Below, in pieces: positions 1 through 41,787 of a stretch of DNA of 64,000 bases (its first letter is position 1; each line of letters begins with the position of its first letter). The notes under the pieces were generated by a model. That model worked only from the letters and a program-made list of their open reading frames with translations. It did no database searches and was not told the DNA's origin. The DNA comes from Lunularia cruciata. Its lineage: Eukaryota > Streptophyta > Marchantiopsida > Lunulariales > Lunulariaceae. The position numbers were made by a program, and so were the translations under genes. The stretch is from the NCBI GenBank assembly GCA_948567375.1, contig OX419760.1, forward strand, positions 13,516,001 through 13,580,000. The letters are read 5' to 3'.

Positions 1-711
1 AGTGCTATACACCAAAATGTCATCAATATAGCACCGAGCAAAATCCAGTCCAGCTAGGATCCTATCCATGACCCTCTGGAACTCAGCAGGAGCATTCTTC
101 AACCCAAATGGTAAGAATCTCCACTGATATAACACATCCTTGCCGTGAGGATCAATAGCCCAAAATGCTGTCTTGGACTTATCTTCCTCCCTGATCGGCA
201 ACTGATGATATCCCGCTCGAAGATCCAAAGTACTGAAGACCTTTGCATGCCCAATCGCATCAAAAATCTCCTCCGGTGTAGGCATGGCATACCGATCAGC
301 CCTGGTCTGTCGGTTGATAGGACGGTAATCTCCACACATCCGCCTATCTATATAGTTGCCATGCATATCCTTCTTGGCTGGCATCACTGTCGCTGATGCA
401 TACTCTCCATGTGAAATCTCCACCAAACCAGCCTCAAAAAGGTCACTACTCCGGCTCTGAATCAATGTCCTCTCCATCTCACTATATCGATAAGGACGTC
501 GGAAAACAGGTGTGTCGCTAGTCAGCTCAATCCGTATACCAGGTCCCTTCAGAGCACCCAAATCCTTCATACTGAAGGTAAAACAACTCATGTGACTCCT
601 CAAGAACCTCCAAACCCTCCGTCTTTCCTCTCCAGTAAGCTTGGGTCCAAGATCTGGCTCCCAAGTATCCTCTGTAACTGTAGTAGGAGTGGAAGATGTA
701 CTGACTGGCTG
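1..711 (-). CDS. pol: Reverse transcriptase, N-terminal part (copy 1, truncated by window edge)
   Basis: The frame continues without a stop from the codon after the UAG at 712-714 to the left edge. It encodes a linker of about 40 residues, then the fingers and palm of a Ty3/gypsy reverse transcriptase, which copies element RNA into cDNA. Visible motifs, matching copy 2, are the substrate-strand region DYRPINRQT, STLDLRAGYHQ and the catalytic box YIDD at about 19-30. The reading frame is the same one used by the methyltransferase end upstream, so this segment is probably made as a fusion. Whether the missing 3' half (RNase H, integrase) is intact cannot be seen. Confidence 0.93.
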
Positions 712-714
712 CTA
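706..714 (-). promoter_or_regulatory. Putative leaky stop codon (UAG-CAG-CCA) between methyltransferase and pol
   Basis: On the element strand the codons are TAG (714-712), CAG (711-709) and CCA (708-706). This exactly fits UAG-CAR-YYA, the tobamovirus-type read-through context known from plant translation. Upstream and downstream reading frames are the same, so read-through would fuse Gag-protease-methyltransferase to pol at a reduced rate, as some retroelements do. Copy 2 has the same TAG CAG but then CAA, which breaks the consensus. The alternative is an inherited CAG-to-TAG mutation in a common parent copy. Confidence 0.5.
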
Positions 715-1317
715 TACTGGGCCCTTGGGAGCAATGGTGTCATGCTCCCGACCACTAGAGGTCCCAACCTCTGTGTGAAAAACTCCCTCCACTCTGGCTG
801 CAAGCTCCATACGTCCTCTGGCTGCATCCCATGTGGACCAAGGGTGTAATCCAAGTAGCCCACGCTCACCTGGATGGACTCCAAGTAGACCACTCTCCCT
901 AGTAGCTACTGGATGTGTCCCAAGAATACCATGTCCACTCGGTCCATCGCCCCCAGCATGTGCCTGAATCGTCTCGATAGGCACAGGGCTCACAAGTGTC
1001 CGAGTGGTGATGCCTATCAAGCGCATCCTACGCTGCTCTGCCAAACCAAGGCTCACAATCCAGGTCAAACAGTTCAGGTCCATAGCCTGACCTAACACCT
1101 GACGCCTGGATGCCTCTGACACTGCTGGAACAGCGGTAATACCGGTGCAAAAACCCATCGCCCGCTCTCTCTCATCAGCATTGGGCTCCACCAACTGCTG
1201 TAACTGTGAGTCCCAAACAAGTCGAGGTCCTCCCTCTCGAAAAGCATGAGAGCCTGGGAAACTCATGAGTGTGGGAAATGCAGCTCTAGGCTGTCCAACT
1301 AGGTTCACCACTGCCAT
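712..1317 (-). CDS. C5-cytosine methyltransferase, C-terminal motifs IX-X (copy 1, after frameshift)
   Basis: This segment continues the methyltransferase of 1305-4997 in another frame. Comparison with copy 2 shows one base missing here near 1317, inside the sequence for VADRSP..AVVNL. It holds ERERAMGF, which corresponds to the conserved ERxxGF of motif IX, and RRQVLGQAMDLNCLTWIV, which corresponds to motif X (in Dnmt3 and DRM enzymes an R-x3-LG-(N/R)-S/W run that completes the cofactor pocket). The frame then runs about 120 residues of unrecognised, Gly/Pro-rich sequence to the TAG at 712-714. The deletion could be real decay or a sequence error; nothing here separates the two. Confidence 0.88.
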   Translation of the reverse strand: MAVVNLVGQPRAAFPTLMSFPGSHAFREGGPRLVWDSQLQQLVEPNADERERAMGFCTGITAVPAVSEASRRQVLGQAMDLNCLTWIVSLGLAEQRRMRLIGITTRTLVSPVPIETIQAHAGGDGPSGHGILGTHPVATRESGLLGVHPGERGLLGLHPWSTWDAARGRMELAARVEGVFHTEVGTSSGREHDTIAPKGPV

Positions 1318-4300
1318 GGTGACCTATCAGCCACTACCACTGTCTGAGACTGACGCCCAACATCCAAGATATCATCAACAAGAATGTGGTCCAGTCGCTG
1401 AATCCCATCATAAGCACGTTGTAGAACCTCTCTGGGTAAGAGGTTTGTCCACCAAAGACGAAGACGATGAGCCCGTGATCCCACTCTGGCTGCATCTAAC
1501 AATACAGCAGGTCCCATCCATGAATGGACCTGATGTGTACTCGCCACCACTCTAGTGCGAGAATCACCCATCAATGGAACGTTCTCCAAAAGGTAAGCTG
1601 GAGAAACAGACTGATGAACCTGGAGATGTCGTAGTATCCGTAACATCTCCCAAAACACACCAGAACGAGGATCCTGAAGACCCAAACCGCGGCCCGCACG
1701 TGTATGTCCCTGACATGGCCATCCAGAAATCACCAAGTGAACAGGCCCATGTCTCTCTAGGTCATGCGCCCCCAGTAAGGAAATGTCTCCTGGTAAGGCC
1801 TTTTGGTAACCTCTGACTGCTGACATCGGTAATAACTCCGGATACCGATAGGCCAAGTGTGCCACATGATGTAGAGAGACTCGCCTAGCAGTCTCATCTC
1901 TCTCTACATACAAGTACCTCTGTACTCGGATACCCGCCTGTAATACCGCAGCTAGTCCGGTGCTGATCCCACCAAACAACTCCAATAGGCATATCCCCTC
2001 TACTGGATACTGCCAAGCAATGAGTGTGGTATCCAGAGGTGTCAAAGCAATCGCCTTTGGAGGCTCATCCTCACACTCATCCCCTGATGGTACGAAGGCT
2101 CCACTCCAAGCCTGCTGCACCAACTGATCTGCATGCTGCTGCAATGCCTCCTCTGAACTCCACAATGGAACATCCAAGGTGGATGGAACAATCCCACTCG
2201 TACTCCATAGCCGAGTGATCTCCTCTGGTATTGGAGTATCCTCTGCATGGGCGTTCCCCTCCAACAAGTCACCAGGCCAAGTAACTGCACCGCTGAAAGC
2301 CAAAACTGATGCTGCCATGGTCCCGGACTGTAGTGAGCCAAGACTGCCACTACTGAAGCATACTGGTAGGCGACATACCCGTCCCTCACCAGACTGCCAA
2401 CCAGGTCTATAAGAGGCTGTCTCCTCCCAATAGTCAATACTGAAACCCATAGGGTATAACACTGCTCCCCCAACTAGCACATCATATGACTCAGCTATCG
2501 TCGCAATAGCCTGAGCTCTCACCACCGAGCTATCAGTCGGATGACCAGGCTGAACCTGGACAACAAGCTCCCCACGTGTGATGTACTGTGTCGAACCACC
2601 ACCAAGAGATGTCTGGATCTGAAATGGACACCTCTCCACATCGGTCTTCCGTAACTCCAGACCAACAACTGCAGCCTTCCCCAACATAAGGGGCTGCGCA
2701 CCAGAGTCTAACAAGACTCTCTGTGGTGTATAGACCTTCCCTGAAGGTCCTACCAAACGAAAGATCCCCCTCTGGTTATCCAATAGGACAACACCAGGTG
2801 TAAACCGCACTCTCTCAAAGGCCGGTCTAGCTGGCAACTCCTCCAGTCTAGCCACTGCTGCCTGCCATAAACCACTGGTCGCTGAACGGATCCCATGCTC
2901 CTCAACCAAGTCAGCTCCACTACCAACCACCTTTGCTCTAGTAGTAGGAACTGCACCATCCCTACTCTCACACAACGTGGCAGCCAACCGGAACACTGGG
3001 GCTGGGTCCACTCCCAATGTAAACAGGTCATTGGCTGAAAATAAAGGATGCCGCATAATCAGCTGAGCCGCCCCCAACATCATGCTAGACTCAGTCTGTG
3101 TAGTAGCAAGTGGCTGACTAGCAGGTACTCCATCAAGTACTCCATCACCACCTACCACACCTGCACTAGGACGTCTAGGAACCATGGATGTCGTCTGCAA
3201 TGCCTCAGATAGCATGAAAGATTGGGGAAGTCTGACCTGTCTCCCAACCTCTCCTCTCTGTGGGTCCAACTCCACTAATGCTCCTCTAGGCTCTGGAGCA
3301 CGTACTGCACTCCTAGTCACTGCTGCAGATGCATCCACCTGTGCTGCTCCGCACATGAAGTCCAAAGCATCTCTATCACCAGCATATGAGGTGGAAGCCT
3401 CAACACCCGAATCTGATCTCCTTTGAGCAATAGCCATACTAGCCAATCTCTGCTCCAACTGCTCAATCCGAGTAGCCATAGCTGTGTCAGAAGTAAGGGC
3501 AGGTACTGCACCCCTACTAGGTGTAGATCCTCTACCACCACCTCTACCACCTCGTCCTCCATGAACTGGAGCTCCTCTACTACCTGCCATAGCAGCCCTA
3601 CCACTCCGTAACTCCGGGTGTAGGTCAAAACACCGGTCACTAGTATGACCAAATCTATGGCAGTGCTCACACTGCCTCTGTGCTGGCTGTGATGCACCAG
3701 AGGTATCAGGTCCGCTGCCTTGAGTACACTCTCTCCTATGGTGAGGTCCACCACAAGTCCAACAAGCAACACCACCACTCACTGGCTGCTGCTGACCCGA
3801 AAATGAGGGTAAGGGTCTAACTCCACTAGGCCCTCCACTCGCTCCATAGGATCTGGGCTGTCCACCCTGTCCTCGAAACCCAACTGGGCGTGGTGCACTC
3901 TGCTGCACTCTAGAAGAAGTCACAACCATGGATGAGGTCTCTCTACCAAATCCAGATGTCACCACTCTCTCCTCCACCATGTTGAGCTCAATACGCTCAG
4001 CCAAACCAAAGACTACTGCCAAAGTGGGCGAAGTAGCCTGCAACAACGTAGCATCACGAACTCTACGTCGCAACTCCCTGTCCAGTATCCCATACCAAAA
4101 CTGGACTGCCTGGGCCTCAGTAACTCCCTGAGTGAAACTGATCAGCCGCCTCATGCGAGTGTATGCCTCGCGTAGGCTCTCTCCAGCCTTCCGCTGGAAC
4201 TCCTGCAAGCTCCTCAGCTTGTCAGTCCGCACTCCCTGGTAGTTCTGCCTCAAACATAGGAAGAACTCAACCATGGGGTTAAACCCCGATACCACACCAC

Positions 4301-4997
4301 CTCCTGCAACGGTACCTCCACTTGTAGTAGCACTATCTCCAGCTAGTGCACCTCCACTAGCTCCACCAACACTACTCGAGCTAGAACTCGTAGGTACAGC
4401 CGACCTACTCCTGGCCACCGAACCTGAAGTGATGGAGACATAGTGTGGAGACCAATACTGTCTCCATAACTCAATCTCCTCCAAATGAGCTCTCCTGAAC
4501 TCATGGTAGTCGTCCATCGGTGGACCCTCCAAGTGCTGAAACAACCCCTTCCATGCCATGAAGGGTGTGAACAAAGTCGGGTTCCGCATCTGCTGCAGAT
4601 CACACCAACTATCGAACTCCTGGATGAAGTCATCCAACTCAATGGTACCCACTGTACCAGAGTAACGCCTAGGGCCTTTGGAGGCCCCATAAATCTCGTC
4701 CATGTCCCACAACAACGGTGCGGACACACCAAGTGCACTCTCAACTGAATCAGCTCCTGTGTCGAACTCCAACTCAGAGTCAATCTCCTCCCTCACTGGG
4801 ACCTGAGATACAGGTTGATACCGAGCACCACTCCGAGTAAACCCACTGCGTACTGCAGGGCTAACTCCTCTGGAATCTCCAAAGAACTCCGTCGTGACAA
4901 AGTAACCACACCAACAAACCCGAACCACCAACTGCAACAGCAAGTCGCAACCGCAAGTGCCCCACCAAGTGCCAACACCACCGCGTGCCAACACCAA
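1305..4997 (-). CDS. gag-pro-MTase: Gag - aspartic protease - C5-cytosine DNA methyltransferase polyprotein (copy 1)
   Basis: One open frame of 1230 codons. Residues about 95-345 are a retrotransposon Gag capsid (LREAYTRMRRLISFTQGVTE region). Two zinc knuckles follow: C412-x2-C-x3-H-x4-C and C443-x2-C-x4-H-x4-C. The retropepsin motif DSGA is at 764-767. From about 1000 there is a cytosine-5 methyltransferase: motif I LELFGGISTG (F1008), an acidic VERDE after strand 2, the catalytic loop GWPCQG with Cys1095, motif VI ENV with Glu1138, and motif VIII SRAHRLRLWW. Spacing and flanking residues resemble Dnmt3/DRM more than Dnmt1. It would transfer a methyl group from S-adenosylmethionine to cytosine. 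No ATG occurs in this frame before residue 99, so the N-terminus is unresolved. Confidence 0.95.
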   Translation of the reverse strand: MVLARGGVGTWWGTCGCDLLLQLVVRVCWCGYFVTTEFFGDSRGVSPAVRSGFTRSGARYQPVSQVPVREEIDSELEFDTGADSVESALGVSAPLLWDMDEIYGASKGPRRYSGTVGTIELDDFIQEFDSWCDLQQMRNPTLFTPFMAWKGLFQHLEGPPMDDYHEFRRAHLEEIELWRQYWSPHYVSITSGSVARSRSAVPTSSSSSSVGGASGGALAGDSATTSGGTVAGGGVVSGFNPMVEFFLCLRQNYQGVRTDKLRSLQEFQRKAGESLREAYTRMRRLISFTQGVTEAQAVQFWYGILDRELRRRVRDATLLQATSPTLAVVFGLAERIELNMVEERVVTSGFGRETSSMVVTSSRVQQSAPRPVGFRGQGGQPRSYGASGGPSGVRPLPSFSGQQQPVSGGVACWTCGGPHHRRECTQGSGPDTSGASQPAQRQCEHCHRFGHTSDRCFDLHPELRSGRAAMAGSRGAPVHGGRGGRGGGRGSTPSRGAVPALTSDTAMATRIEQLEQRLASMAIAQRRSDSGVEASTSYAGDRDALDFMCGAAQVDASAAVTRSAVRAPEPRGALVELDPQRGEVGRQVRLPQSFMLSEALQTTSMVPRRPSAGVVGGDGVLDGVPASQPLATTQTESSMMLGAAQLIMRHPLFSANDLFTLGVDPAPVFRLAATLCESRDGAVPTTRAKVVGSGADLVEEHGIRSATSGLWQAAVARLEELPARPAFERVRFTPGVVLLDNQRGIFRLVGPSGKVYTPQRVLLDSGAQPLMLGKAAVVGLELRKTDVERCPFQIQTSLGGGSTQYITRGELVVQVQPGHPTDSSVVRAQAIATIAESYDVLVGGAVLYPMGFSIDYWEETASYRPGWQSGEGRVCRLPVCFSSGSLGSLQSGTMAASVLAFSGAVTWPGDLLEGNAHAEDTPIPEEITRLWSTSGIVPSTLDVPLWSSEEALQQHADQLVQQAWSGAFVPSGDECEDEPPKAIALTPLDTTLIAWQYPVEGICLLELFGGISTGLAAVLQAGIRVQRYLYVERDETARRVSLHHVAHLAYRYPELLPMSAVRGYQKALPGDISLLGAHDLERHGPVHLVISGWPCQGHTRAGRGLGLQDPRSGVFWEMLRILRHLQVHQSVSPAYLLENVPLMGDSRTRVVASTHQVHSWMGPAVLLDAARVGSRAHRLRLWWTNLLPREVLQRAYDGIQRLDHILVDDILDVGRQSQTVVVADRSPWQW

Positions 4998-5000
4998 CTA

Positions 5001-6248
5001 AAACACCACCCACTAATGTAACTCTAACCGAGATAACTACACTAGGGGAAGGGCAACCTGTAACCTGCCATCATAACACGCACTCTCACGGTCTGCAGGT
5101 CATCACTTCCTGCCTCACCGGAGAGAAACAAAGGTAGTCTGACTGGTCATCACTCCAGCCTCACCACCGAGAGCACACCAGAGCACCAACGCTCAAAAGT
5201 CAAGGCACCTCACACAAACGTGGTGCACAAACAGGAAGCAGAGAATAGAGGGGATCCAATCACAAGAAATCTAAACGAAAACCCTCCATCTCATAACACA
5301 ACACGGGACTGACTCTGCCACCATTTGGCATTTGACATAAGAGTAGTTCGTATCTAAGTCCTAAGCTACCAGGATCACCAAGAATGGGATCAAACTGCCT
5401 CTCCTAGCCAAAGCTACATGTGTATAGATAACAGTGGCACAGTCACTATGACAACAAGTGAGGGTGGACCAGTTGGCTAGGGCACCAGTCTAGGAACAAG
5501 AGATCTAGGGGTCAAACCCTGTTGCGCACAATCTAGCAAGAAAGGCAGATTTTGCCAACCAATGACCAAGATCTACACTAAACTAGCTAGCCTCACGCCA
5601 GCAAGCTGGCTTGCTGGCCCTTCTGGCCCTTCTAGGCCTTCGTAGCCTCTCATAGCCCACAGCCCTATGCCTCTAAACGCCGAAATTCAGCCAAATGAGG
5701 CCTTTCTTGTTGCCACTTCAAACCTCCTCCAAAATTGGCAAAACTTCTCCAAATCTGCGAAACTCCTCCAAACTAGCGAAACTTCTCCAAATCTGGCCAA
5801 ACAGCGAAACTCCTCCAATTCTGGCCCAAAATCTGACGTAAATCTGACGTAAACCCTAAAGATGGATGTCTGCCAAATCCCCCGCTAACTTTCCACTCGA
5901 GCCAAATTGATAAAACGGGTTTTTCCAAATCACAATTTCATGAGAAGAGCTTTCCAACTCCACCTTCAATTTCACTTTCTGAGCCCAACTCGCAGCAAAT
6001 TGGTCCTGCCTTCACCTCCTGAGCTCAAAATCACAACACTGCTCGAAAATTGCTCCTTCTTTGCTCGAAATTTGGCCAACGCTTCCGCACACCGTCCGCC
6101 GAACTGCCAAATTTGCATCAACTACACGAGTTCTGCACACTAGGGAAACACAGAACCTGAATCGAGCTACCACGATCCACCGAGCTTGGAGATACCACCA
6201 ACACTCAACGTTCCTGCACCCGATTTCCCCCTGACTTCACTTCTCTGA
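5001..6248 (-). other. Untranslated 5' leader of retrotransposon copy 1
   Basis: About 1.25 kb without a convincing coding frame between the LTR and gag. It contains a 22-base near-perfect palindrome (5597-5618, arms of 10 bases, 2-base loop), also present in copy 2 (40696-40717). It also holds a short tandem repeat (about 5720-5830) built on CTCCTCCAAA / CTTCTCCAAA followed by GCGAAAC, one unit longer than in copy 2. The bases next to the LTR on the element strand read TCAGAGAAGTGAAG; they do not match the 3' end of initiator tRNA-Met well, so the primer binding site is unassigned. Confidence 0.7.
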
Positions 6249-6699
6249 TGTAATCAGATTGCTTAACATTCTCAACTCAACTCAACTCAGATCAGTACTT
6301 GATCTGTCACTCTATAAACTGCCAACAACTGGGCACTGATTACAGTCAAGCCACACCCACTCAAGCATAGAGAATCCAGGTGACGCTCGCCGGCCTCTGT
6401 CCACCATAGCCAGGAACTCGAAGGCTCAACATCAGAGAAGTGAGCTCTCTGGAGCTCACTTCGAAACTATACCCCCTGGACTCGAGCTAGCCCTGAAACC
6501 CTAACGGTCCCGCTGACGGCACACTCGACGGTGCAAACGGTGCAAAGTGACGGTGGGCCCCACCGTGAAGTCAGTACCCCGAACACGAAATCTAACCGTC
6601 GGAAAGTAGTCCCTGAGAAACAGCTAGAATAACTCTAACTACCATCACTGGAACTCCAGTGTCCGAGCATCTAGATGCGGAACTACAAATGGCGTGACA
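6249..6699 (-). repeat. 5' LTR of retrotransposon copy 1
   Basis: A 451-base LTR, bounded on the + strand by TGTAATCAG and GGCGTGACA and so TG...CA on the element strand as well. It matches 41318-41787 and 31992-32443. On the element strand a TATA box (GTTTATAGA, about 6312-6320) lies about 65 bases before the LTR end, so R-U5 is short. A perfect 11-base inverted repeat with a 4-base loop sits at 6437-6462. Confidence 0.92.
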
Positions 6700-13590: not shown

Positions 13591-15860
13591 TATCTATCAT
13601 TATTGATTATTCAGTATTCAATAGAACTATAAAAAAATTCTGTTTGAGTTCTTGATTAACACAAAACTCTTTATCTACAAATAACAATACCGTTTGAGTA
13701 TTCAGCTTGCTTGACAGATACAAGAATGTTTACCAAATCAAATGAATCGTGATTTTCTCAAGGGAAAACTCGTTATGAATCGTGATTATTTCCTTGAGAG
13801 GGAACCTTACGCATGGTTTGAAATATTTAGAAAGAATTTGCATATGGATATAATCTCTTTTATTCTATTCCTTTTTATTCATTTGTAAGTATATTGCGTT
13901 TTCTAGAGGTCATTTTGATTAAAACTCAGTAACCTAAATTATAGTGAAGATCAATACTATCAAGGCTATAATACATACTATTTCCCTGGATTCAGCTCTG
14001 TTCCCATGTATGGCTTAGACCGAAATCCCATAGGAAATAGACAATAAGAATGAGGAAATCAACTGTCATATAAATACAAATCAATTGTACATATATCCTT
14101 ATATATAATAAAATCTCTAGATTGATAAAAGTGTATAGTGTTGAAAAAAAATACTATAATTTTAAAGATTATTATTTCATATCGTCCTACAAAGTATAAT
14201 AAACTTTTTAATTTCCACCACAGCAAGATAATCCAGAATCAAATTTTACTGTTATCAATAGGTCTAAATAATTAATTGGATTTATAACTAGATCCTGTGT
14301 GTACGGATTTTTTAGTTCATGCTAATTTTTTAAGAAAATTTATTTTCTATAAAAAATATTTTTTGAAGGAAAATAGCTATATAAAAGTAGTCAAATTAGA
14401 TAGAATGGCCATCCAGGTCATCCAAAATCACAAAGAAAGAAATCAAAGAAGGGAGATAGCTTTGTGAAAAATATTGTTCCAATTAGAGAATGAAAGTGAA
14501 GGTGGAGGATAAAATTTGTAATAAAATCATCATATTTAAAACAAAAAATATATTAAAAAGGTATTAAAAATATTTATCATTGTAGTAAGATTCCATCTAA
14601 AACGAGTAACCTGAATCTTTGAAGAAGTGGTAAAATTTCTTCCCAAGTTTGAAGGATATAGTAGAATTGCTGTTGCGCATGAGATTTGTACAGGTTATGT
14701 GCTATTTTAATTGTATATGCTATTTTAAAATAAAAGAAACTAAATAAGAGAGTAGTGATTTATTCACCTTTTTATTTCAGGTTATCTATCAAAAAAACTT
14801 CTTTACCTCATCTCATTCTCAATTTGCAACATACTATTTGATAAATATGTAAGCATTTCATACTACTTGTGCCTTATCTTTTTGAAAATCTTATTCCATT
14901 TTCTTTAACTAAAATAATATTCAAAAATATCTTCTATTTTAACTAAAAAAATTACTGAAAATTTAAAGCCTCACTACAATTTTATTTTAAAATATTTATA
15001 TTAGAAAATTTTAGAGAAGAACTAAAAAAAGTAGCAAGTTTTATGGTTAGACTCCATTACTAAGATGTATAGAATTTTACATTTTATTTATCCTCTAATT
15101 ATTTAATAATATTTTAAATGAAAATTCAGATAGACTAAGATGGCTATAAAGATTTAAAGTAAATAAAATTAATTATAATTTTTTTTATTTAAGGCTTACG
15201 GTTTCAAATTATTTTTAGTGTGAAATAAAAAAAAGTAAAAGATGTCTTGCATGGTGACTAAGTTTTCATAGATAAAAATTAATTCATTCTAAAACATAAA
15301 AAATATTAAAATAAATTGGAGATAAACTCTATAAAATCTTTAGATTTAGAAGCTGGACTCACAAACTAATGTCTTGATTGAGATTACCTTTACATTATAA
15401 ATATGTCCTAAAGATTTAGTATCAGTCACCAATCACTTCTATAGTAAAATATAGGTCGCGAAGTAAAGGATATTATAAACCTCAAACTTAAATATTGAAT
15501 AAGGTTAAGGAAGACATTTTCCTCCTGTCAGAGGAGGTGCATACCACAGCTCATGTATCTTATTGAAAGAACTTCATACTTTAGTAAAAGATTGACTCGT
15601 TCCAATGATATATTTTTTTCCAATAACAACGACCGTGATTGTTTTCTTGAGTACAAGTGAAAGAAGAATACACTAGAACTCATTGTGACACAGGAGAGTT
15701 TCAATTGGAATCATTATGGTTGATAACCTACAAATATTAACTAAATATTATGTAAAGATAACTTGAGATAATTTTATGGGAATTGATATTTTCACATCAA
15801 TTTAAAAGTAATCATAAAAAACATTTTATTTTATTTATAAAAGTTCTTACGGAGATGACA
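13591..15860. other. AT-rich non-coding block
   Basis: About 2.3 kb of strongly AT-rich sequence with many A and T runs and no open frame of note. It begins right after the truncated LINE. No gene, RNA or organised repeat could be made out. Confidence 0.6.
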
Positions 15861-16964
15861 AAAATGCAGTGATAGCTTTCTTTTGTGGCTGGCGGGCGGG
15901 CGGGAGGGGGGTTGGGGTCTTACATCGACAGGAGGTGGGTGCATACATAACATTGAGATTTGTGAGGCGTTTGCAGGTATGTGACACTTTTTCAGGAGAG
16001 CAGCACCCAATAAATATCGTAAGGAAGCTTCACTGTAGAATGGGTCCAAAATAGACAACGAAATTATTTCAAAATAAGGGAAGACCATGTCCCGTCACAA
16101 AAGAATGGGATTCTATAACCTTGTAGTTAATCCCATCTAATTCTTGACATTATCGGCTGAGTGAGTCTTGACTGTAGTATTGCAGCAAAAGACCTTCATA
16201 CATTAGATAGTAAACAATGGTGTCTTAAAATGAAAATACATTGGTTACTACTACTGAAATGTCGATGAAATTTCTTCTACCCAAGGAGAAAAAGGTGTTC
16301 ACTGATGAACCCAAGTTAAAGTAAGATATGGTGGGAGTAGGAACATGCAGGAAGTTTCATCATGCTCAAGGAGAAACAACCCAGATCTTCTTTATGCTCG
16401 CAATGTTTGGGGTTTGCAGTGGACACTATAATCAACCTGTACTGGAGTACCTGCAGAACGAAAAGTTGTGATTTGGCCGTGTGAACTTTTGGGTACTGCC
16501 TTTTCTCATGGTCTGCTTACAAACATGGAGGACAAGGAAAGTCCAGTGTCCTCCTTTCCAGTCTACTGTAAGGCAGGACTGGCTTCAGACAGGACTCTGC
16601 AGAGTGTAGTCTTTGCAGTGATCACAACAGACTCAATTTAAGCTAATCAAACCCTCGTTGGGTAGCTTAAATTACAGTAAAAGTTTAGTTGACGCGAGGT
16701 TAATCGAACCAGAAAGCAAGTGATTTTGGAAATATAAAAAGTGGAGGGCATGCGTAAAAAGTCTCTCTCCTGATCAGAGATTCGAATTTCGGCTTTAGAA
16801 GAAACCCTGGCTGCGCTGGAAACTGTAAACCATTTTTTAAGCAGTGACTAATCCCAGAGTAGGAACTCGAAGGATCTTGACCAAGGTCCTCGATATTGAC
16901 GAGGCACGGTAACATGCCACAACACAAGGGTAGCTACGAGGAATTTCGGGTCTTGTCACCAATT

Positions 16965-23500: not shown

Positions 23501-25030
23501 GAAAAATGATGTTGGCAATGTACTAGCATATACTACCCATCTCCAAGCCTTGGATTTACGAGCTAGGATAGTTAGGCAAGCTTCTGATGGGTTTAAAGGA
23601 CTGTCCTAGATTCGATGGTGATTCCGTGCTTCAAGTTGTATTTTTGTGTGCACCACATCACAGCTACCACAGATGATGTTAGTGCATCAATACATGAATA
23701 TGGTACCTTTATTACCATCTCCAAGCCTTAGTTTTAGTAGCTTGGATTTTTAGGCCTAAAGCAGGTCGGTGTTGGAGCAGAGTTGTTGGTGATATCGCTT
23801 GATTGTCCATCACGAGATAGCGACGGAACAACGGAGTATACTACGGATTCTAATACTAATCCTTGGGTATTTGCCTGGTCGTCTATTTTGCACCATGAGG
23901 CAGGGAACCTTTACTCAGTTCAACCACTGAATGTATGCAACAAGTGACAATGATCAGCCTGAAAATCTTCTGTTTTATGTCAAAACCGAGAACAGTGAAC
24001 GCAATTGTCTCATACACTTCCCAAAAGCACGACTAGTTTCGTTGTCATTGTACATGGCAACAAATATGTTGGTGATTTTGCTGGAGTTTCCGTTAAGACA
24101 TACCTCCATAATATTGGAGTATACTAGGGATTCTCTTTCCAATTTGTCACCTCGATTCGCACAATGAGTCGGGTTCAATGTTTGTTACTGAATATGATTG
24201 TCTTTACTTCTGCTTATCTTCGTACTGTTAAATTCACTTTATTTCCATTCCCTTAGATGCAATTCATTTCGATTTGCACATGTTCATGCTTGCATTTCAT
24301 ATGCACTTCAATATGCACGTTCTCGGTTCATGCTTTGTGGGTTCTGGATCCCCCGTTCTTCCAACGCTTCTGCTCCCTTTTCTCAAATATGATCGTCTTC
24401 GACAAGTGGTAGTGATCAGCTTGATCCTCTTCTTTCTCAATCAAAGCCAAAAGGATTGAGCGCTTACCTCTCACCTAATTCCAAAAATATTATTAGTTAT
24501 TTGAGATAGCAAATCTACGTTTTTTATCCTTCTGACTTTTTGAGATGACGATTCCTACAGTCGATCTCTTGAGCAGTACTCCTGAGGATGGCTCAAGCCT
24601 AGTGAAGCATCTTCTTCAAAGCCCCTTAGATCATATTTATGACCAATTCATTCCAAGTCTTTCAAGTTGGATGATTAGATGTTTTTTCTGTTTGCTGAAG
24701 TGCTATTTTGTACGATAGATTAAGATGAAATTTCTTTCCGGCTCGAATATAGGGCGCAATTCGAGCCGGAAGATTATGGCTAGATGTGGCTAGATAAGAC
24801 TCGTTGCTGTCGCTCTGTACTCCTGGAGTTTGTAACATGGTTTTATGATGTGACCGCAGAGAAAGAAAACGGTCCAAAAACAATAAACGATATGAAGTTA
24901 ATTAATGCTGGGAAAGTGCTGGAGAATAACAAGACCCTTGCTGAATCAAGAGTACCGGTTGGTGAGTTACCTGGTGGGGTTATAACAATGCATGTGGTTG
25001 TGCGACCCCCTTCTTCAGATAAAGCTAGTG
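20575..25030 (+). CDS. MUB: Membrane-anchored ubiquitin-fold protein (last exon not found)
   Basis: Exon 1 (20575-20704) begins MAGEDLVELKFRLYDGTDIG and exon 2 (24860-25030) begins EKENGPKTINDMKLINAGK; they join in phase 1. Together they form the beta-grasp ubiquitin fold of plant MUBs, including the typical KFRLxDGTDIGP, STLKESI and LENNKTLAESRVPVGELPGGVITMHVVV blocks. MUBs are prenylated at a C-terminal CaaX box and recruit group VI E2 enzymes to the plasma membrane. Exon 2 ends at a donor (GTAAGC) after DKASG. The short final exon with the CaaX box was not identified, so the C-terminus is open. Intron 1 is unusually long (about 4.2 kb) and T-rich. Confidence 0.9.
24347..24377 (+). repeat. 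Dispersed intronic motif, copy in MUB intron 1
   Basis: A GATCCCCCGTTCTT core followed by CAACGCTTCTGCTCCC. Similar stretches occur in an intron of HISN3 (43386) and an intron of the 50225-54458 gene (51988), always on the coding strand. Function unknown. Confidence 0.55.
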
Positions 25031-27955: not shown

Positions 27956-29097
27956 ATGACGATTAAGATATATGGAGTCCTGGATCCCCAGGCACTGGTC
28001 GAGTGTTGATGACTTTGTTCGAGAAGGGCATAAACAGATCCGAGATTGAAATTCTCCACATAAACTTTGAGGCGGGAGAGCAAAAGTCGCCCGATCATCT
28101 CAAGAGACAGGTATGTCGAGCTTGCTTTCGATTTGAAGGCTTTCTTTGAGAGTTGAGCTTTGTCTTCAGATGTCGAAGGGCCTCACTCTGAAGGATACGT
28201 CTGCTGGCTACTTGCAGTCCCAGTCTCATCTCCTTAGAGTGACCAAATTCTTTGACAATCAGGACTTCAGTGTTCCTAGTGTCCTCCTTTCTTTGAAGAT
28301 CAGCATAGGCCATTTATTAGGGCCTAAGATAGGTCAGTGGTCTGAAGACGTACAAGACTGTGGTGGCTTGACAGAAAGAAGTAGTCCTCCATAAGTTTAT
28401 TTGATTTCTGTGGTTCTCGTGGCAGCCATTCGGCCAGGTCCCAGTGCTTGAAAATGGTAACATGATGCTCTACGGTAAGTTTCATCCCTACATGGAAACC
28501 TCAAGGTGAAGTCGTAAGGATAATACAGCAAATTAGTGGTCTAAAACCCCAGATCTTAGACAATGAAAGCTGTTTTTTTCTCCCCTTCCTTCGGCAGAAT
28601 CACGAGCAATCGCCAGAACCATCGCGCACCAGTACGCCAACCAAGGCAATCCTCTATACGGATCATCACCGAAGGATGCGGCCTTGACGGAGCAATGGCT
28701 GGAAGTCGAGAGTCAAAACTACAACGGACCTATCACGAAAATCATCCGCGAAGGGATCGTCCGCCAACTGTACAACAAGCCCATCGACCATGCTGTGATT
28801 GATGCCGAACTCCTCAAGCTTGAATCAGTGCTGGACGTGTACGAGAAGCGCCTCTCCGAGAGCAAATACTTGGCCGGTGATTTCTTCAGTCTGGCTGATT
28901 TGTCCCACATCCCGTACACGTTCCTGATGATCAAAATCGGCGAAATGAGAGATGTCTTCGATGCTCACCCTCACGTCAAGGCTTGGACGGACGACATTTT
29001 TCTCCGTCCGTCTACTCAGAACTGGGTGGAACTGGCGACTCCTCGTTTCCGTCTGTTCAAGAAGCTAGATCGACCAGGGGATGTTAACCATGATTAG
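27956..29097 (+). CDS. GSTF: Phi-class glutathione S-transferase, with an apparent 1-base deletion in exon 1
   Basis: Exons 27956-28110, 28426-28474 and 28598-29097 join in correct phase (0, then 1), for about 234 residues. The N-terminal thioredoxin-like domain starts MTIKIYGVL and continues, one base out of frame, with SPGTGRVLMTL (the region of the catalytic Ser of phi GSTs), then PFGQVPVLENG and ESRAIARTIA. The C-terminal helical domain contains LAGDFFSLADLSHIPY and HPHVKAWTDDI. Exon 1 is 155 bases where 156 are needed, so one base is missing near 27983. This could be a sequence error or recent inactivation; everything downstream is intact. GSTs conjugate glutathione to electrophiles or reduce peroxides in the cytosol. 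Confidence 0.88.
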
Positions 29098-31886: not shown

Positions 31887-31991
31887 TGTCGTGCGTATAT
31901 ACATCGCTACACAACATACATTGCTGTCAACATCATACACTATAAAAGCACAACTCACACATAAGTCATACATAGACTCTAAAGTGCCACA
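31887..31991 (-). repeat. 105-base repeat A, outer copy at 3' end of retrotransposon copy 2
   Basis: Starts TGTCGTGCG and ends GTGCCACA on the + strand, so it has TG...CA ends like a small LTR. It is nearly identical to 32444-32548, and both flank the LTR-like block. On the element strand it contains a TATA-like TTTTATAGTG. Confidence 0.85.
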
Positions 31992-32443
31992 ATAATCAGA
32001 TTGCTTAACACTTTCAACTCAACTCAACTCAGATCAATACTTGATCTGTCACTCTATAAACTACCAACAACTGGGCACTGATTACAGTCAAGCCACACCC
32101 ACTCAAGCATAGAGAATCCAGGTGACGCTCGCCGGCCTCTGTCCACCATAGCCAGGAACTCGAAGGCTCAACATCAGAGAAGTGAGCTCTCTGGAGCTCA
32201 CTTCCAAACTATACCCCCTGGACTCGAGCTAGCCCTGAAACCCTAACGGTCCCGCTGACGGCACACTCGATGGTGCAAACGGTGCAAAGTGATGGTGGGC
32301 CCCACCGTGAAGTCAGTACCCCGAACACGAAATCTAACCATCAGAAAGTAGTCCCTGAGAAACAGCTAGAATAACTCTAACTACCATCACTGGAACTCCA
32401 GTGTCAGAGCATCTAGATGCGGAACTACAAATGGCGTGATAGC
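31992..32443 (-). repeat. LTR-like block at 3' end of retrotransposon copy 2
   Basis: Matches the 5' LTR 41318-41787 and copy 1 LTR 6249-6699 along its length. The terminal dinucleotides are changed (TAATCAG instead of TGTAATCAG; GGCGTGATAGC instead of GGCGTGACA). It sits between two copies of repeat A and does not lie next to the polypurine tract. Confidence 0.88.
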
Positions 32444-32548
32444 TGTCGTGCGTATATACATCGCTACACAACATACATCGCTGTCAACATCATACACTAT
32501 AAAAGCACAACTCACACATAAGTCATACATAGACTCTAAAGTGCCACA
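32444..32548 (-). repeat. 105-base repeat A, inner copy next to the polypurine tract
   Basis: Near-identical to 31887-31991. Its inner end lies two bases from the polypurine tract at 32551-32560, the position where a 3' LTR should begin. Confidence 0.85.
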
Positions 32549-32550
32549 AT

Positions 32551-32717: not shown

Positions 32718-34335
32718 TCAAGTACATCTAGGACATAACCACTGTCCTTGAGGAACCACCGTGAGGGGAGGAGTCATACATGCCATATGCCATCCTCTCG
32801 AACAGCTATCACACACTAACATAGTAGCAGCTCCACCAGAAGAGCCACATAACATACACCTCAAGCCTGCACGTACAAGTGCCAAGCTTGGGTCCATAGT
32901 ACCATCAATGTTTGGGAGGTGGCATGGCGCACAATTGCGCACATGATCCTTCCAAACAACACCATCACGTCCTTCTAACACAAGGACTCCAGATGGCAAA
33001 ACCTCGCGCACTCTCAAGATAGTGCGGCCTGTAGAAACATCAAGTGTCGTCGGTGCTGTCTGCTGTAGATATACATAGTCGCCTGGATGAAATCGACGGA
33101 TCGAGGGTATATAACCTCCTCCTCGAATGGTAGCATAGCGTAAAGTATCTCTATGCTGAGCAATCGCCAAGTTCTCGAAGGCCATCGGCATCACTCTCTG
33201 AAAGATCTCTGCACGCTGAGAACATGCGCTCATCCATACATCAGGGTCATCCAAGTCCAAAACTACAGTAGCATCTCGACAAATGGCTGCAGGTAAATCT
33301 GGATCTCGTCCATAGAGTAGAAAGTATGGAGAGAAGGATGCTAAGGAGGCTTGCCGGCTGAACCGATAGCCCATGGCCAACCAAGGTAACTGGAGATCCC
33401 AATCTCCCAAGTGGCCTCTCTGCAAACCATACTTTTGCAATCCTCTCTTCACCGTCTGAACCACTCTCTCTGCTAAGCCATCTGCCTCAGGGTGATCTCG
33501 AGATGTAGTACTGATCAATCAAAGCCTTGTCACACAAGACCTGAAACTCTCCCAAGAACTCTGTACCCTGATCAGTCAAAACCTCAGCTAGTGCACCAAA
33601 ATGACTAAGAACTCGATCCTGGAATGAGTAAGCTGTCCCTTCACTAGACTTGTCAAGAAGTGCCACCAACTCAATCCACTTGGAGAAGTGCTCCACCATC
33701 ACCAAAACATACCGATGATGTCTCACAGTCAGCGGTAAAGGTCCGGCGAAGTCCAAACTCCAACGGTAACCCAATCCCATGATAGGTAATGGGTGTAACT
33801 GTGGCGTAGGAGCATTGAATGATGCTCTAACTCGGTCACAAACCACACATCTGGCAACAAACTGCTGTACCTCGGTCTGCATACCGCGCCACCAATAATG
33901 ACTCTAGAGTAAGCTATATGTACGCTTTACTCCAAAATGTCCTAGTTCCTCATGAGCATGACGGACCAACTGTGGTCTCTGTGATGGAAGTGGTACTACT
34001 CGCACTCTACCATCCTCCCATACACGCAAAAGGTGTCTACCCTCCAATCTGAACCGTCTGGCTCGCTGAAGAACACGGTCTCTCTCCTTGGCCCCAACTG
34101 TGCCACCCACAACACCAGTGCGAAGATAGTCCATCACTAAGACATCATCATGAATGTCTCACTGAATTGTACCAATATCTTCACTCTCTGGATCTGTGAC
34201 CTCAATAACTCCTCCTGTATGCGCTGAGAGAGATACCACCAAAGTCTCTGCAAATATACACAGAAAGGCCGATGCATGCCAACCTGGCACCATCTCCTCA
34301 TCTGTCTCACCATGCCAACGTGCTCTGGTCTGATC
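32718..34335 (-). pseudogene. Integrase with C-terminal PHD finger (copy 2, broken)
   Basis: Three pieces: 33904-34137, 33487-33882 and 32718-33518. The first pieces carry the zinc-binding HHCC domain (HEELGHFGVKRTYSLL ... CVVCDRV). The DDE core follows: WSLDFAGPLP, VLTDQGTEF and HPEADGLAERVVQTVKRGL, which insert cDNA into the genome. After a GDYVYL region the protein ends with a canonical C4HC3 PHD finger (C-x2-C-x11-C-x2-C-x4-H-x2-C-x14-C-x2-C, at 32721-32858) with the usual Trp before the last pair. PHD fingers commonly bind histone H3 tails. Breaks: stops at about 34161 (TGA) and 33904 (TAG), and a frameshift near 33500. The PHD piece itself is intact. Confidence 0.9.
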
Positions 34336-35829
34336 CTACTGGCTGGGACATGGGTTTCTACTCAACCCATCTGCATCACGGTTCACCACTCCAGGTCTAT
34401 GAACAACCGTGAAATCATACTCCTGTAAAATCAGAGCCCATCGTGCAAGCTTCCCTGAAAGCTTGTCGGACTCCATCAACCACTTCAGCGGCTGATGATC
34501 AGTGATGAGAGTGAAGGGGTTACCAAATAGGTAACATCGGAAATGTGCTACTGCCCAAACTGCTGCCAAGCACTCTCCCTCATATGAACTATACTTTGCC
34601 TCTGCTGAATTGTTGGAGCGACTAGCATAGGCCACCACAAACTCCTTCTCCTCATCATCATGTTGGGTGAGCACCGCTCCAAGCCCCAACATACTCCAAT
34701 CAGTGTGAACCTGAAATGGTCGTCCCCTGATCGGTCTCCTCAAAATAGGAGCAGATGTCAACCTCTCCTTGAGCTCTACAAAAGCTCTCTCCTGCTCATC
34801 TCCCCAACACCACTCCTGTGTAAGCTTGGTCAGCTTCGTCAAGGCCTTGGCAATGGCACTAAATCCTCTAACAGAGCGGCGATAGAAGTTCGCCAACCCA
34901 AGGAATGCTCGCACTCTGCTCACATCCGTAGGCCGAGGAATACGTGCAATAGCCTCCACCTTGGTCTGCTGAACACCAAGTCCTTCGGGGTAGATAGTGT
35001 GACCCAAATACTCAACCTGGTCGTGGAAGAACCTACACTTCCCAGGATGTAGTTTGAGTCCATGAGATCTCAACCTCTCAAACACCTCCAACAATTGTCG
35101 CTCATGCTTCTCCACAGTAGTGCTATACACCAAAATGTCATCAATATAGCACCGAGCAAAATCCAGTCCAGCTAGGATCCTATCCATGACCCTCTGGAAC
35201 TCAGCGGGAGCGTTCTTTAACCCAAATGGTAAGAACCTCCACTGATATAACACATCCTTGCCGTGAGGATCAATAGCCCAAAATGCTGTCTTGGACTTAT
35301 CCTCCTCCCTGATCGGCAACTGATGATATCCCGCTCGAAGATCCAAAGTACTGAAGACCTTTGCATGCCCAATCGCATCAAAAATCTCCTCCGGTGTAGG
35401 CATGGCATACCGATCAGCCCTGGTCTGTCGGTTGATAGGACGGTAATCTCCACACATCCGCCTATCTGTATAGTTGCCATGCATATCCTTCTTGGCTGGC
35501 ATCACTGTCGCTGATGCATACTCTCCATGTGAAATCTCCACCAAACCAGCCTCAAAAAGGTCACTACTCCGGCTCTGAATCAATGTCCTCTCTATCTCAC
35601 TATATCGATAAGGACGTCGGAAAACAGGTGTGTCGCTAGTCAGCTCAATCCGTATACCAGGTCCCTTCAGAGCACCCAAATCCTTCATACTGAAGGCAAA
35701 ACAACTCGTGTGACTCCTCAAGAACCTCCAAACCCTCCGTCTTTCCTCTCCAGTAAGCTTGGGTCCAAGATCTGGCTCCCAAGTATCCTCTGTAACTGTA
35801 GTAGGAGTGGAAGACGTACTGACTTGCTG
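34336..35829 (-). pseudogene. pol: Reverse transcriptase - RNase H (copy 2)
   Basis: Open from the codon after the shared TAG (35830-35832) to a TAG at 34336-34338. Counting from an ATG-less start at 35721, the reverse transcriptase palm has STLDLRAGYHQLP, WRFLPFGLKNAPAEFQRVMD and the catalytic YIDD at residues 192-195. RNase H follows with FQVHTDWS, EGECLAAVWAVAHFRCYLFG and LITDHQPLKWL, ending DADGLSRN. Typical length and order for Ty3/gypsy. The closing TAG follows Ser-Gln and the frame stays the same in the integrase downstream, so it is more likely a mutation than a natural end. This is the least damaged part of copy 2. Confidence 0.93.
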
Positions 35830-37339
35830 CTACACTGGGCCCTTGGGAGCAATGGTGTCATGCTCCCGACCACTAGAGGTCCCAACCTCTGTGTGAAAAA
35901 CTCCCTCCACTCTGGCTGCAAGCTCCATACGTCCTCTGGCTGCATCCCATGTGGACCAAGGGTGTAATCCAAGTAGCCCACGCTCACCTGGATGGACTCC
36001 AAGTAGACCACTCTCCCTAGTAGCTACTGGATGTGTCCCAAGAATACCATGTCCACTCGGTCCATCGCCCCCAGCATGTGCCTGAATCGTCTCGATAGGC
36101 ACAGGGCTCACAAGTGTCCGAGTGGTGATGCCTATCAAGCGCATCCTACGCTGCTCTGCCAAACCAAGGCTCACAATCCAGGTCAAACAGTTCAGGTCCA
36201 TAGCCTGACCTAACACCTGACGCCTGGATGCCTCTGACACTGCTGGAACAGCGGTAATACCGGTGCGAAAACCCATCGCCCGCTCTCTCTCATCAGCATT
36301 GGGCTCCACCAACTGCTGTAACTATGAGTCCCAAACAAGTCCAGGTCCTCCCTCTCAAAAAGCATGAGAGCCTGGGAAACTCATGAGTGTGGGAAATGCA
36401 GCTCTAGGCTGTCCAACTAGGTTCACCACTGCCATAGGTGACCTATCAGCCACTACCACTGTCTGAGACTGACGCCCAACATCCAAGATATCATCAACAA
36501 GGATGTGGTCAAGTCGCTGAATCCCATCATAACTACGCTGTAGAACCTCTCTGGGTAAAAGGTTCGTCCACCAAAGATGAAGACGATGAGCCCGTGATCC
36601 CACTCTGGCTGCATCTAACAATACAGCAGGTCCCATCCATGAATGGACCTGATGTGTACTCGCCACCACTCTAGTGCGAGAATCACCCATCAATGGAACG
36701 TTCTCCAAAAGGTAAGCTGGAGAAACAGACTGATGAACCTGGAGATGTCGTAGTATCCGTAACATCTCCCAAAACACACCAGAACGAGGATCCTGAAGAC
36801 CCAAACCGCGGCCCACCTGTGTATGTCCCTGACATGGCCATCCAGAAATCACCAAGTGAATAGGCCTATGTCTCTCTAGGTCATGCGCCCCCAATAAGGA
36901 AATGTCTCCTGGTAAGGCCTTCTGGTAACCTCTGACTGCTGACATCGGTAATAACTCTGGATACCGATAGGCCAAGTGTGCCACATGATGTAGAGAGACT
37001 TGCCTAGCAGTCTCATCTCTCTACATACAAGTACTTCTGTACTCGGATACCCGCCTGTAACACCGCAGCTAGTCCGGTGCTAATCCCACCAAACAACTCC
37101 AATAGGCATATCCCCTCTACTGGGTACTGCCAAGCAATGAGTGTGGTATCCAGAGGTGTCAAAGCAATCGCCTCTGGAGGCTCATCCTCACACTCATCCC
37201 CTGATGGTATGAAGGCTCCACTCCAAGCCTGCTGCACCAACTGATCTGCATGCTGCTGCAATGCCTCCTCTGAACTCCACAATGGAACATCCAAGGTGGA
37301 TGGAACAATCCCACTCGTACTCCATAGCCGAGTGATCTC
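35830..37339 (-). pseudogene. C5-cytosine DNA methyltransferase domain (copy 2, broken)
   Basis: Same domain as in copy 1. Motif I LELFGGISTG lies in the piece 37013-37294; the catalytic GWPCQG, ENV and RAHRLHLWW are in 36355-36984; and ERERAMGF with motif X is in 35830-36312. All catalytic motifs are still readable. Breaks relative to copy 1: one base lost near 37339, two bases lost near 37020, CGA-to-TGA at 36355-36357 and CAG-to-TAG at 36322-36324. Where copy 1 has a single-base deletion (near 1317), copy 2 keeps the frame, so the parent element had this region continuous. The TAG at 35830-35832 is shared with copy 1. Confidence 0.92.
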
Positions 37340-41317: not shown

Positions 41318-41787
41318 TGTAATCAGATTGCTTAACACTTTCAACTCAACTCAACTCAGATCAATACTTGATCTGTCACTCTATAAACTGCCAACAACTG
41401 GGCACTGATTACAGTCAAGCCACACCCACTCAAGCATAGAGAATCCAGGTGACGCTCGCCGGCCTCTGTCCACCATAGCCAGGAACTCGAAGGTTCAACA
41501 TCAGAGAAGTGAGCTCTCTGGAGCTCACTTCGAAACTATACCCCTGGACTCGAGCTAGCCCTGAAACCCTAACGGTCCCGCTGACGGCACACTCGACGGT
41601 GCAAACGGTGCAAAGTGACGGTGTGCCACACCGTGAAGTCAGTACCCTGAACACGAAATCTAACCATCAAAAAATAGTCCCTGAGAAACAGCTAGAATAA
41701 CTCTAACTACCATCACTGGAACTCCAGTGTCCGAGCATCTAGATGGAACTCCAACTAGATGCGGAACTACAAATAAATGGCGTGACA
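41318..41787 (-). repeat. 5' LTR of retrotransposon copy 2
   Basis: A 470-base LTR with TGTAATCAG and GGCGTGACA ends on the + strand. It is longer than in copy 1 mainly because of a small duplication of GAACTCCAACTAGATG near 41744-41760 and of AAAT near the end. TATA box and inverted repeat are as in copy 1. Confidence 0.92.

Follow-up and report, generated by a model that had tools for sequence, protein, structure and literature searches.

Retrotransposons that carry a DNA methyltransferase have been described in Symbiodinium and in Klebsormidium, and one of them, KnitGypsy-Dnmt3, is of the gypsy type (de Mendoza et al., 2018; PMC5890265); a figure legend of that paper gives its repeats as arranged in the manner of DIRS elements. 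SymbioDIRS-Dnmt3 and SymbioLINE-Dnmt of Symbiodinium are further retrotransposon-borne C5 methyltransferases, and CG activity was demonstrated for SymbioDIRS-Dnmt3 in the same paper. Elements encoding DAM and DCM enzymes occur in green algae, according to a passing mention elsewhere (PMC6338049). We analyzed a stretch of 64,000 nucleotides (the window) from the bryophyte Lunularia cruciata (assembly GCA_948567375.1, contig OX419760.1, positions 13,516,001-13,580,000, forward strand) and found that it holds two copies of one Ty3/gypsy-type element, both on the minus strand, which encode a C5-cytosine methyltransferase between protease and reverse transcriptase (RT). A first-pass annotation of this DNA had named dinoflagellates and Klebsormidium as precedents for such a capture, correctly so (PMC5890265).

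Layout of the element and identity of its methyltransferase

The element reads L1, leader, Gag, two CCHC knuckles, protease, methyltransferase, TAG, RT, RNase H, integrase, PHD finger, A1, L2, A2, where L and A are repeats. Copy 1 (1-6699) is cut at the left window edge, and copy 2 (31887-41787) is complete and shows the same domain order, as had been claimed for it. The features of the two copies are as follows.

6251..6699, minus strand: copy 1, 5' terminal repeat L1 (TG...CTGATTA)
4008..4703, minus strand: copy 1, Gag region (PF03732 below cut-off, 0.044; profile match at residues 99-330)
3531..3689, minus strand: copy 1, two CCHC knuckles (sequence CWTCGGPHHRREC and CEHCHRFGHTSDRC; profile match)
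2148..2735, minus strand: copy 1, aspartic protease region, limits approximate (DSGA at 2697-2708; profile)
1045..1994, minus strand: copy 1, putative DNMT3-type C5-cytosine methyltransferase, spanning two frames (catalytic Cys codon 1713-1715)
712..714, minus strand: copy 1, stop codon TAG (TAG CAG CCA) separating methyltransferase from RT; intact copies keep one frame across it
1..711, minus strand: copy 1, start of the RT frame, which runs off the window
41320..41787, minus strand: copy 2, 5' terminal repeat L1
36355..40122, minus strand: copy 2, Gag-protease-methyltransferase region, frame broken in several places
35830..35832, minus strand: copy 2, conserved TAG (TAG CAG CAA)
34336..35829, minus strand: copy 2, RT and RNase H (PF00078 3.6e-32, PF17917 8.7e-37; Ty3 RT 1.3e-70)
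32898..33903, minus strand: copy 2, integrase, in two overlapping frames (33487-33903 and 32718-33518)
32724..32897, minus strand: copy 2, PHD finger at the integrase C terminus (PF00628 1.8e-11; PHD fingers in the Protein Data Bank)
32444..32548, minus strand: copy 2, internal repeat A1 (TG...CA), preceded by the purine tract AGGGGGGCGA
31993..32441, minus strand: copy 2, repeat L2, GC-joined to A1
31887..31991, minus strand: copy 2, terminal repeat A2 (ends ...GACA), with a TTTT 4-bp target duplication on both sides of the element

Gag, two CCHC knuckles, a DSGA protease and a C5 methyltransferase placed between protease and RT are thus all present on the minus strand of 712-4997, where the first-pass annotation had put them. 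Its further claim of a single frame with the complete motif set fails for copy 1, whose frame at 1305-4997 (1230 residues) holds motifs I, IV, VI and VIII only and ends soon after, motifs IX-X lying in another frame (712-1323). Since copy 2 has several frame breaks, neither window copy is intact. An unbroken first frame of 1428 residues is found in 6 of 20 copies fetched from elsewhere in the genome (L009, L010, L018, L022, L026 and L027), and the second frame, of 1037 residues, is open in L016. When we surveyed frames domain by domain, counting copies with at least 90% of the domain length and leaving window copy 2 out of the alignment, Gag was intact in 16/21 copies, protease in 19/21, methyltransferase in 15/21, RT-RNase H in 11/18 and PHD in 15/20; the integrase, intact in 3/19, is broken in most copies.

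The order protease-RT-RNase H-integrase, with a DDE integrase after RNase H, places the element in the Ty3/gypsy type. The integrase was detected by a profile of our own making, and in relatives by PF00665/PF17921; PF13650 stayed below its cut-off in the protease of the relative P0001. The PHD finger belongs to the integrase tail (PF00628 match of copy 2, 1.8e-11). No primer binding site was identified in the element, and Rfam and tRNA scans of the window gave no matches.

The methyltransferase matches PF00145 at residues 1070-1149 (4.4e-7, 30.1 bits against a cut-off of 22), and Cys1095 of the 1230-residue frame, singled out by the first-pass annotation, is indeed the PCQ cysteine. Human DNMT3A matches the domain at 3e-10 in sequence comparison, the nearest solved structures by sequence are DNMT3A and DNMT3B, and the motifs stand in the unrearranged order I-IV-VI-VIII-IX-X, as in DNMT3. 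Judged by these comparisons, the methyltransferase is of DNMT3 type. We rejected a DRM origin because the motif order is not rearranged, unlike that of DRM, and a bacterial-type DCM origin because the representative P0187 falls far outside in the trees.

A fold model was made for P0001, not for the window copy, from 27 aligned relatives; its mean predicted local distance difference test score (pLDDT) is 68.7, with most ten-residue blocks of the methyltransferase at 75-94 and some loops lower. The best match in a fold search with this model was 8tdr_A (DNMT3A; E 1.7e-16, template modelling score 0.79 by target length), and all 50 listed matches were DNMT3A, 3B or 3C chains or complexes with 3L, so that the predicted fold of P0001 is DNMT3A-like.

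The relatives comprise 187 proteins from three protein searches, one of which contributed 120 of its 133 matches. Of these, 153 have more than 80% of the domain; the catalytic Cys, the motif VIII Arg and the motif X Asp are each present in 150 of the 153, and the ENV Glu in all 153. Identity to the Marchantia protein P0006 is 71% in the methyltransferase, 70% in Gag, 62% in the CCHC knuckles, 58% in the protease and 49-54% in the linkers (the RT is 79% identical to that of P0004); between families, the methyltransferase is therefore conserved as much as Gag, and above protease and linkers.

Genomic copies, the TAG and the split repeats

We searched the genome (565.8 Mb in 74 contigs) with two queries, the first frame, which favours copies having the methyltransferase, and an 800-base integrase-PHD query, which does not. 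All 38 scored copies from the first-frame search, the window's own included, reach at least residue 1228. From 3857 first-look candidates of the integrase-PHD search, 40 copies were scored, both window copies among them, and for the 38 others we fetched 501 bases at the expected place of the methyltransferase, finding it there in 36 (identity 95.4-99.6%). The domain is thus a regular part of the element, in place in 38/40 integrase-PHD copies, and the finding that the first-pass annotation had named as decisive against it, a majority of copies without the domain, is the reverse of what we observed among the 40 copies listed. A chance insertion of the methyltransferase into one copy is rejected by the same counts (38/38 first-frame and 38/40 integrase-PHD copies carry the domain). 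The fetched stretch of the two exceptions, L051 and L066, is unrelated to the element, and for each of them the first-frame search lists a copy lying 5-8 kb more upstream in the same orientation (C7:59303008 and C1:46473570), a layout as expected if other DNA had inserted between domain and integrase. A genome search with PF00145 scored 123 places, most with the short profile range typical of the element (about 48-120), as judged from the range and not by checking each place. We also searched the genome for diverged families with P0010; each of the 58 matches had 55% identity, and they apparently represent this family once more.

A TAG follows the methyltransferase in 21/21 copies that retain the stretch (22 examined; L013 has lost it), with the context TAGCAGCCA (TAG CAG CCA) in 20 copies and TAG CAG CAA in window copy 2. 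One leaky-stop context known from plant viruses is UAG-CAR-YYA. In copies with both frames open, the RT continues in the same frame past the TAG, and the methyltransferase lies on the Gag side of it, the first frame being Gag-CCHC-protease-methyltransferase and the second RT-RNase H-integrase-PHD. Predicted proteins of the liverwort relatives P0002, P0005 and P0006, as well as P0008, end shortly after the methyltransferase.

The label 'LTR retrotransposon' (LTR, long terminal repeat) given by the first-pass annotation stands insofar as the element is of Ty3/gypsy type, and it needs qualification because the terminal repeats are split, in the order L-ORFs-A-GC-L-A (ORFs, open reading frames). 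This split order had escaped the first-pass annotation, as had the TAG at 712-714 and the ends of the element. In copies selected via the first frame, ends were sought by motif in 22 rows, and both ends were found in 12. In all 12 the ends are TG..CA and are immediately flanked by a 4-bp target duplication, with a different 4-mer in each of the twelve; the TTTT duplication of window copy 2 is weak by itself because it lies in a run of T. All 12 also have L at the left end and A-GC-L-A at the right, so that a full, identical long terminal repeat at both ends is not what the element has. A1 is GC-joined to L2 in 15 of the 17 copies with a located A end (the sequence of L011 and L017 continues into other DNA), and AGGGGGGCGA precedes A1 in 18/18 rows with the A1 start found, with one base changed in L025.

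Private variants are common to L1 and L2 of one copy (for example in W2, L014, L018, L022, L024 and L027), which argues that both derive from one template per cycle. Many other L variants, mostly at CG sites, occur in L1 or L2 alone, as later decay would leave them; the median L1-L2 distance is 1.15% within copies and 1.62% between them, a weak contrast, and the A repeats gave none. The L2|A2 joint is the same in 14 of the 16 copies compared, apart from a single base change in one of them. The other two differ: in L020 about 90 additional leader bases are present at a short microhomology, and in L024 the joint is filled by 65 inverted bases that derive from the region after the methyltransferase. 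These variants suggest integration from joined complementary DNA (cDNA). Further rearrangements were seen at 5' ends: L022 has a second partial L inside the leader, L026 a short L joined to late leader, and L028 an inverted L-A fragment upstream (its positions 1-360), suggesting template switching or nested insertions.

We then turned to traces of methylation. In 15 aligned copies, C-to-T changes confined to a single copy amount to 0.183 per CG site, 0.157 per CHG and 0.026 per CHH, and other single-copy changes to 0.002-0.018. The CpG observed/expected ratio is 0.48-0.50 in six elements versus 0.73-0.75 in the window flanks. From this pattern of substitutions, the copies are probably heritably methylated at CG and CHG. 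Six of the PF00145 places, with other profile ranges, were read and proved to be host cytosine methyltransferase exons (L069-L074), which we take, partly from motifs typical of each class, to be DNMT3-like (L069, L072), DRM-like with rearranged motifs (L070, L073) and CMT- or MET1-like (L071, L074). A host DNMT3-like exon runs into a stop, as expected of a gene split by introns, and has no close similarity to the element domain.

Relatives, trees and surroundings

The closest named methyltransferase proteins among the matches listed come from the liverworts Calypogeia fissa and Marchantia polymorpha, and a Sphagnum fallax gene model is as near where comparable (74% over 206 columns). Together with plant-type genes beside the copies, they point to a land-plant host, probably a bryophyte (liverwort or moss). 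The Klebsormidium nitens protein P0183 (KFL_009030040) has fitting domains, by which we equate it here with KnitGypsy-Dnmt3. The methyltransferase precedes the RT in 29/29 named streptophyte proteins having both (bryophytes 5, Closterium 23, Klebsormidium 1) and follows it in 106 of 108 other proteins, the exceptions P0169 and P0179 grouping with Closterium and Klebsormidium. We call the second arrangement chlorophyte-type as a working label; its named members are Haematococcus, Monoraphidium and Chlamydomonas eustigma, most sources being without a name.

A PHD finger follows the integrase in 107/108 chlorophyte-type proteins with room for it, as in the window element. The linker between integrase and PHD is similar in some of them (CHLPNIDGTMDPSLA in the window, CHLPNIDPTLDPSLA in P0019); when a strict pattern was written for it, just 2 of 114 fitted. 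Closterium integrases (P0143, P0144, P0166 and P0168) end before the PHD point (0/1 by the same rule), and the Klebsormidium model P0183 is cut before it, so that absence of PHD is not shown there. The suggestion in the first-pass annotation that an architecture with PHD may be distinct has to be withdrawn: the order protease-methyltransferase-RT-RNase H-integrase is also found in P0183 and Closterium, and methyltransferase and PHD occur together in more than 100 polyproteins, some of them chlorophyte.

Other modules and sources were noted along the way. A G-patch domain (PF01585, precomputed) also occurs in the element polyproteins P0019, P0044, P0057, P0076 and P0104, and in P0138 of Chlamydomonas eustigma the PHD is accompanied by SH3 and by a weak chromo domain, so that these elements bear additional accessory modules. 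One polyprotein of such an element, P0079, is catalogued in a bacterial metagenome-assembled genome (Minisyncoccia), where it is most likely algal contamination. A scan of IMG/VR with P0022 gave no match, and the two pattern matches from a scan of GTDB with P0135 are not relatives.

We built a methyltransferase tree of 73 rows, namely three outgroup rows and 70 chosen ones (the window, members of named groups that cover enough of the domain, a selection of interesting unnamed relatives and every fifth of the other well-filled unnamed ones), with support from the Shimodaira-Hasegawa-like approximate likelihood ratio test (SH-aLRT) only. Bryophyte-type rows form one group (100), sister to Closterium plus P0169 (82), and the chlorophyte type forms another (95); the two Klebsormidium proteins fall apart. 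An RT-RNase H tree (51 rows, or 52 with Ty3) joins bryophytes with Closterium (84; 91/84 with Ty3), adds P0183 to them (99 without Ty3) and recovers the chlorophyte type (99, and 100/99 with Ty3), and the two trees agree in their main groups. We also made a host-gene tree of 43 rows and 132 columns. There the element domains all group in a single clade (93/99) with a long branch, and the sequences from outside the elements (a DNMT3 exon and two DRM pieces of the host, and human DNMT3A) lie apart from it. About 18 residues between motifs I and IV are common to the printed element rows (window, P0179 and P0026) and absent in the host pieces and DNMT3A. In this tree, with its few host genes, the elements of bryophytes, Closterium, Klebsormidium and the chlorophyte type share one methyltransferase clade.

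Elsewhere in the window lie exons of host genes:

24784-25089: host exon, Rad60-SLD ubiquitin-like
28567-29097: host exon, GST C-terminal domain
46681-46998: host exon, ribosomal protein L29
60305-60619: host exon, phloem protein 2

GC content is markedly low at 14001-16000 (27%) and 30001-32000 (30%), the second stretch lying directly past copy 2 on its 3' side; most host bins have about 40-45%. A direct repeat of 81% identity (30750-30971 and 62874-63095) goes with similar frames (HPPRWAASAAT...KVSKYR) in 30639-30962 and 62871-63290, which have no Pfam match, and the pair are possibly pieces of non-LTR elements.

Proposed mechanism, alternatives and known systems

We think it reasonably probable that this is a multicopy bryophyte Ty3/gypsy-type retrotransposon that makes a DNMT3-type enzyme in its Gag frame, reads through the TAG, marks its own cDNA, integrates from joined cDNA and goes back to a single acquisition of the methyltransferase. 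The steps proposed here start from the observed architecture, the occurrence of the domain in almost every copy examined, its catalytic residues conserved among relatives, the predicted P0001 fold, the ends, the target duplications and the split repeats, and are given in order of falling confidence. The TAG would be read through part of the time, yielding the methyltransferase with Gag in structural amounts and less of RT-integrase. Because it would be made with Gag in such amounts, the enzyme could be carried in the virus-like particle and methylate new cDNA there, mostly at CG, so that the insert would arrive already marked; the PHD-tailed integrase may steer insertion by reading histone H3. 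The benefit might be concealment from sensors of foreign DNA, or a quick quieting of new inserts that spares the host. The first-pass annotation had likewise suggested that the element may methylate its own DNA or its surroundings. Reverse transcription would give cDNA with A-GC-L at each end, whose ends would be joined, sometimes imprecisely, and the integrase would cut A|GC|L in one repeat, dropping GC and leaving an L-ORFs-A-GC-L-A insert. The methyltransferase would have been gained once, by an ancestor of the streptophyte and chlorophyte elements, and later moved within the polyprotein.

Several observations weigh against parts of this proposal. RNA structure that might support readthrough was sought downstream of the TAG, and nothing special was found (z 0.23); decay of CAG to TAG is frequent among the copies, which makes a defect in the copied lineage a possible source of the TAG; and methyltransferase and RT lie in one protein in Klebsormidium P0183 and in Closterium gene models. 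CHG scars nearly as strong as those at CG are unexplained by a CG-preferring DNMT3, and host methylation is therefore enough to account for them. Shared variants within the family, outside CG/CHG decay, are one nonsynonymous and one synonymous in the domain, and single-copy variants (20 and 7) look neutral, a comparison too shallow to judge selection within the family. The single-origin tree has 132 columns and few host sequences, its 93/99 lies just under the program's mark for trusted branches, and within it DNMT3A pairs with host DRM and the host DNMT3 exon is left out of the branch that unites DNMT3A, DRM and elements (85/86). In the RT tree, bryophytes have as few as three rows, and Ty3, its sole methyltransferase-free gypsy element, attaches on the streptophyte side, so that the streptophyte elements are not shown as a clade there. 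A yeast assay of the Klebsormidium enzyme saw no activity, and its authors call the assay inconclusive (PMC5890265).

Where the domain came from admits a different account, in which streptophyte and chlorophyte elements captured it independently, and this would also explain the two insertion points, before RT (29/29 named streptophyte proteins) and after RNase H (106/108 others follow RT). Recurrent acquisition is described in PMC5890265, but both types fall in one clade (93/99) with about 18 shared residues, and the window and algal elements have a PHD tail and a similar linker in common. One clade and the shared residues favour a single acquisition followed by relocation, with few host sequences in the comparison, and we regard independent captures as a serious but somewhat unlikely account. 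Our tree result does not bear on the independence of the charophyte and dinoflagellate cases as given in that paper. The split repeats, for their part, might not be a replication form but a relic left by nested insertion or by copies recombining with one another, and indeed L011, L013, L015, L017 and L025 are truncated or rearranged, and copies chosen via the first frame may miss other arrangements. With the same arrangement in 12/12 two-ended copies, each with its 4-bp duplication at TG and CA, and with private variants common to L1 and L2, such a relic seems highly improbable.

The role of the enzyme can likewise be read otherwise. If the domain were kept for a non-catalytic role, binding nucleic acid or building the particle as part of Gag while host CMT, MET1 and DRM methylate the copies, its place in the Gag frame, scars alike at CG and CHG in the pattern that host enzymes would leave, and the host DRM-, DNMT3- and CMT-like exons would all fit; yet the residues of methyl transfer are nearly invariant (Cys 150/153, ENV Glu 153/153), and the domain shares one protein with RT in Klebsormidium, Closterium and algal relatives, and we judge this role unlikely. 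That the enzyme acts on the host genome and not on its own cDNA, bending host silencing or marking target sites, would suit the high copy number (123 scored PF00145 matches, most element-like by profile range) and a speculation in PMC5890265 on a genome-wide effect in Symbiodinium. Against it stand the Gag-frame position and the window flanks, which, by keeping a CpG ratio of 0.73-0.75 versus 0.48-0.50 in the six elements, give no sign of indiscriminate methylation, and we hold this action to be distinctly unlikely. Beyond the preferred reading of a cDNA-marking element, a wider version is conceivable and tentative: one lineage would have combined a DNMT3-class enzyme with a histone-reading integrase since before the chlorophyte-streptophyte split and down to living bryophytes, using a hybrid route of gypsy RT, cDNA end joining and a DDE cut at A|GC|L together with Gag-level cDNA marking. 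Land plants silence transposons by DNA methylation. A transposon that brings, and long keeps, its own methyltransferase would mean that methylation can serve the parasite, and a gypsy integrase acting on joined ends, if that is how it works, would connect the LTR mode of replication with that of the DIRS type. Liverworts such as Marchantia are transformable, and the function of the element becomes testable in them.

KnitGypsy-Dnmt3 resembles the Lunularia element in joining a gypsy polymerase with a DNMT3-type domain in the polyprotein, in its protease-methyltransferase-RT-RNase H-integrase order (as seen in P0183) and, by the figure legend in PMC5890265, in its DIRS-like repeats. In the RT tree P0183 falls on the side of the Lunularia element, with Closterium closer still (RT 91/84; methyltransferase 82). 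The two elements differ in that their domains are 41% identical and in that ours has a land-plant host, a PHD tail (at a point before which P0183 is cut) and a TAG between methyltransferase and RT; target duplications and joints, both described here, find no mention for KnitGypsy-Dnmt3 in the accessible text of that paper. DIRS-like repeats are also common to SymbioDIRS-Dnmt3, while SymbioDIRS and SymbioLINE are given there as using tyrosine recombinase or LINE machinery instead. A tyrosine recombinase is absent from the Pfam matches of the window.

The chlorophyte gypsy polyproteins of Haematococcus, Monoraphidium and Chlamydomonas eustigma share the methyltransferase clade and the PHD on the integrase tail, but have the methyltransferase between RNase H and integrase. 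Chromoviruses are gypsy elements with a chromodomain, a histone-reading module at the integrase C terminus; the Lunularia element has PHD in place of the chromodomain, plus the methyltransferase. DIRS/PAT-like elements have split direct repeats in the order A-ORF-B-A-B, and the split direct repeats described here recall them, although the element differs from the DIRS type in its gypsy-type integrase, TG..CA ends and 4-bp target duplications. In the literature covered, mostly non-subscription sources and without bioRxiv, we found no bryophyte gypsy elements with a C5 methyltransferase, no PHD tail on such elements and no account of their target duplications. As far as our searches show, this locus and its relatives add land-plant members, previously printed as absent, to the known systems; a common clade of bryophyte, Closterium, Klebsormidium and chlorophyte-type elements; an integrase PHD finger shared by the window element and chlorophyte-type ones; a methyltransferase in the Gag frame before a kept TAG; and split repeats with target duplications and joint variants.

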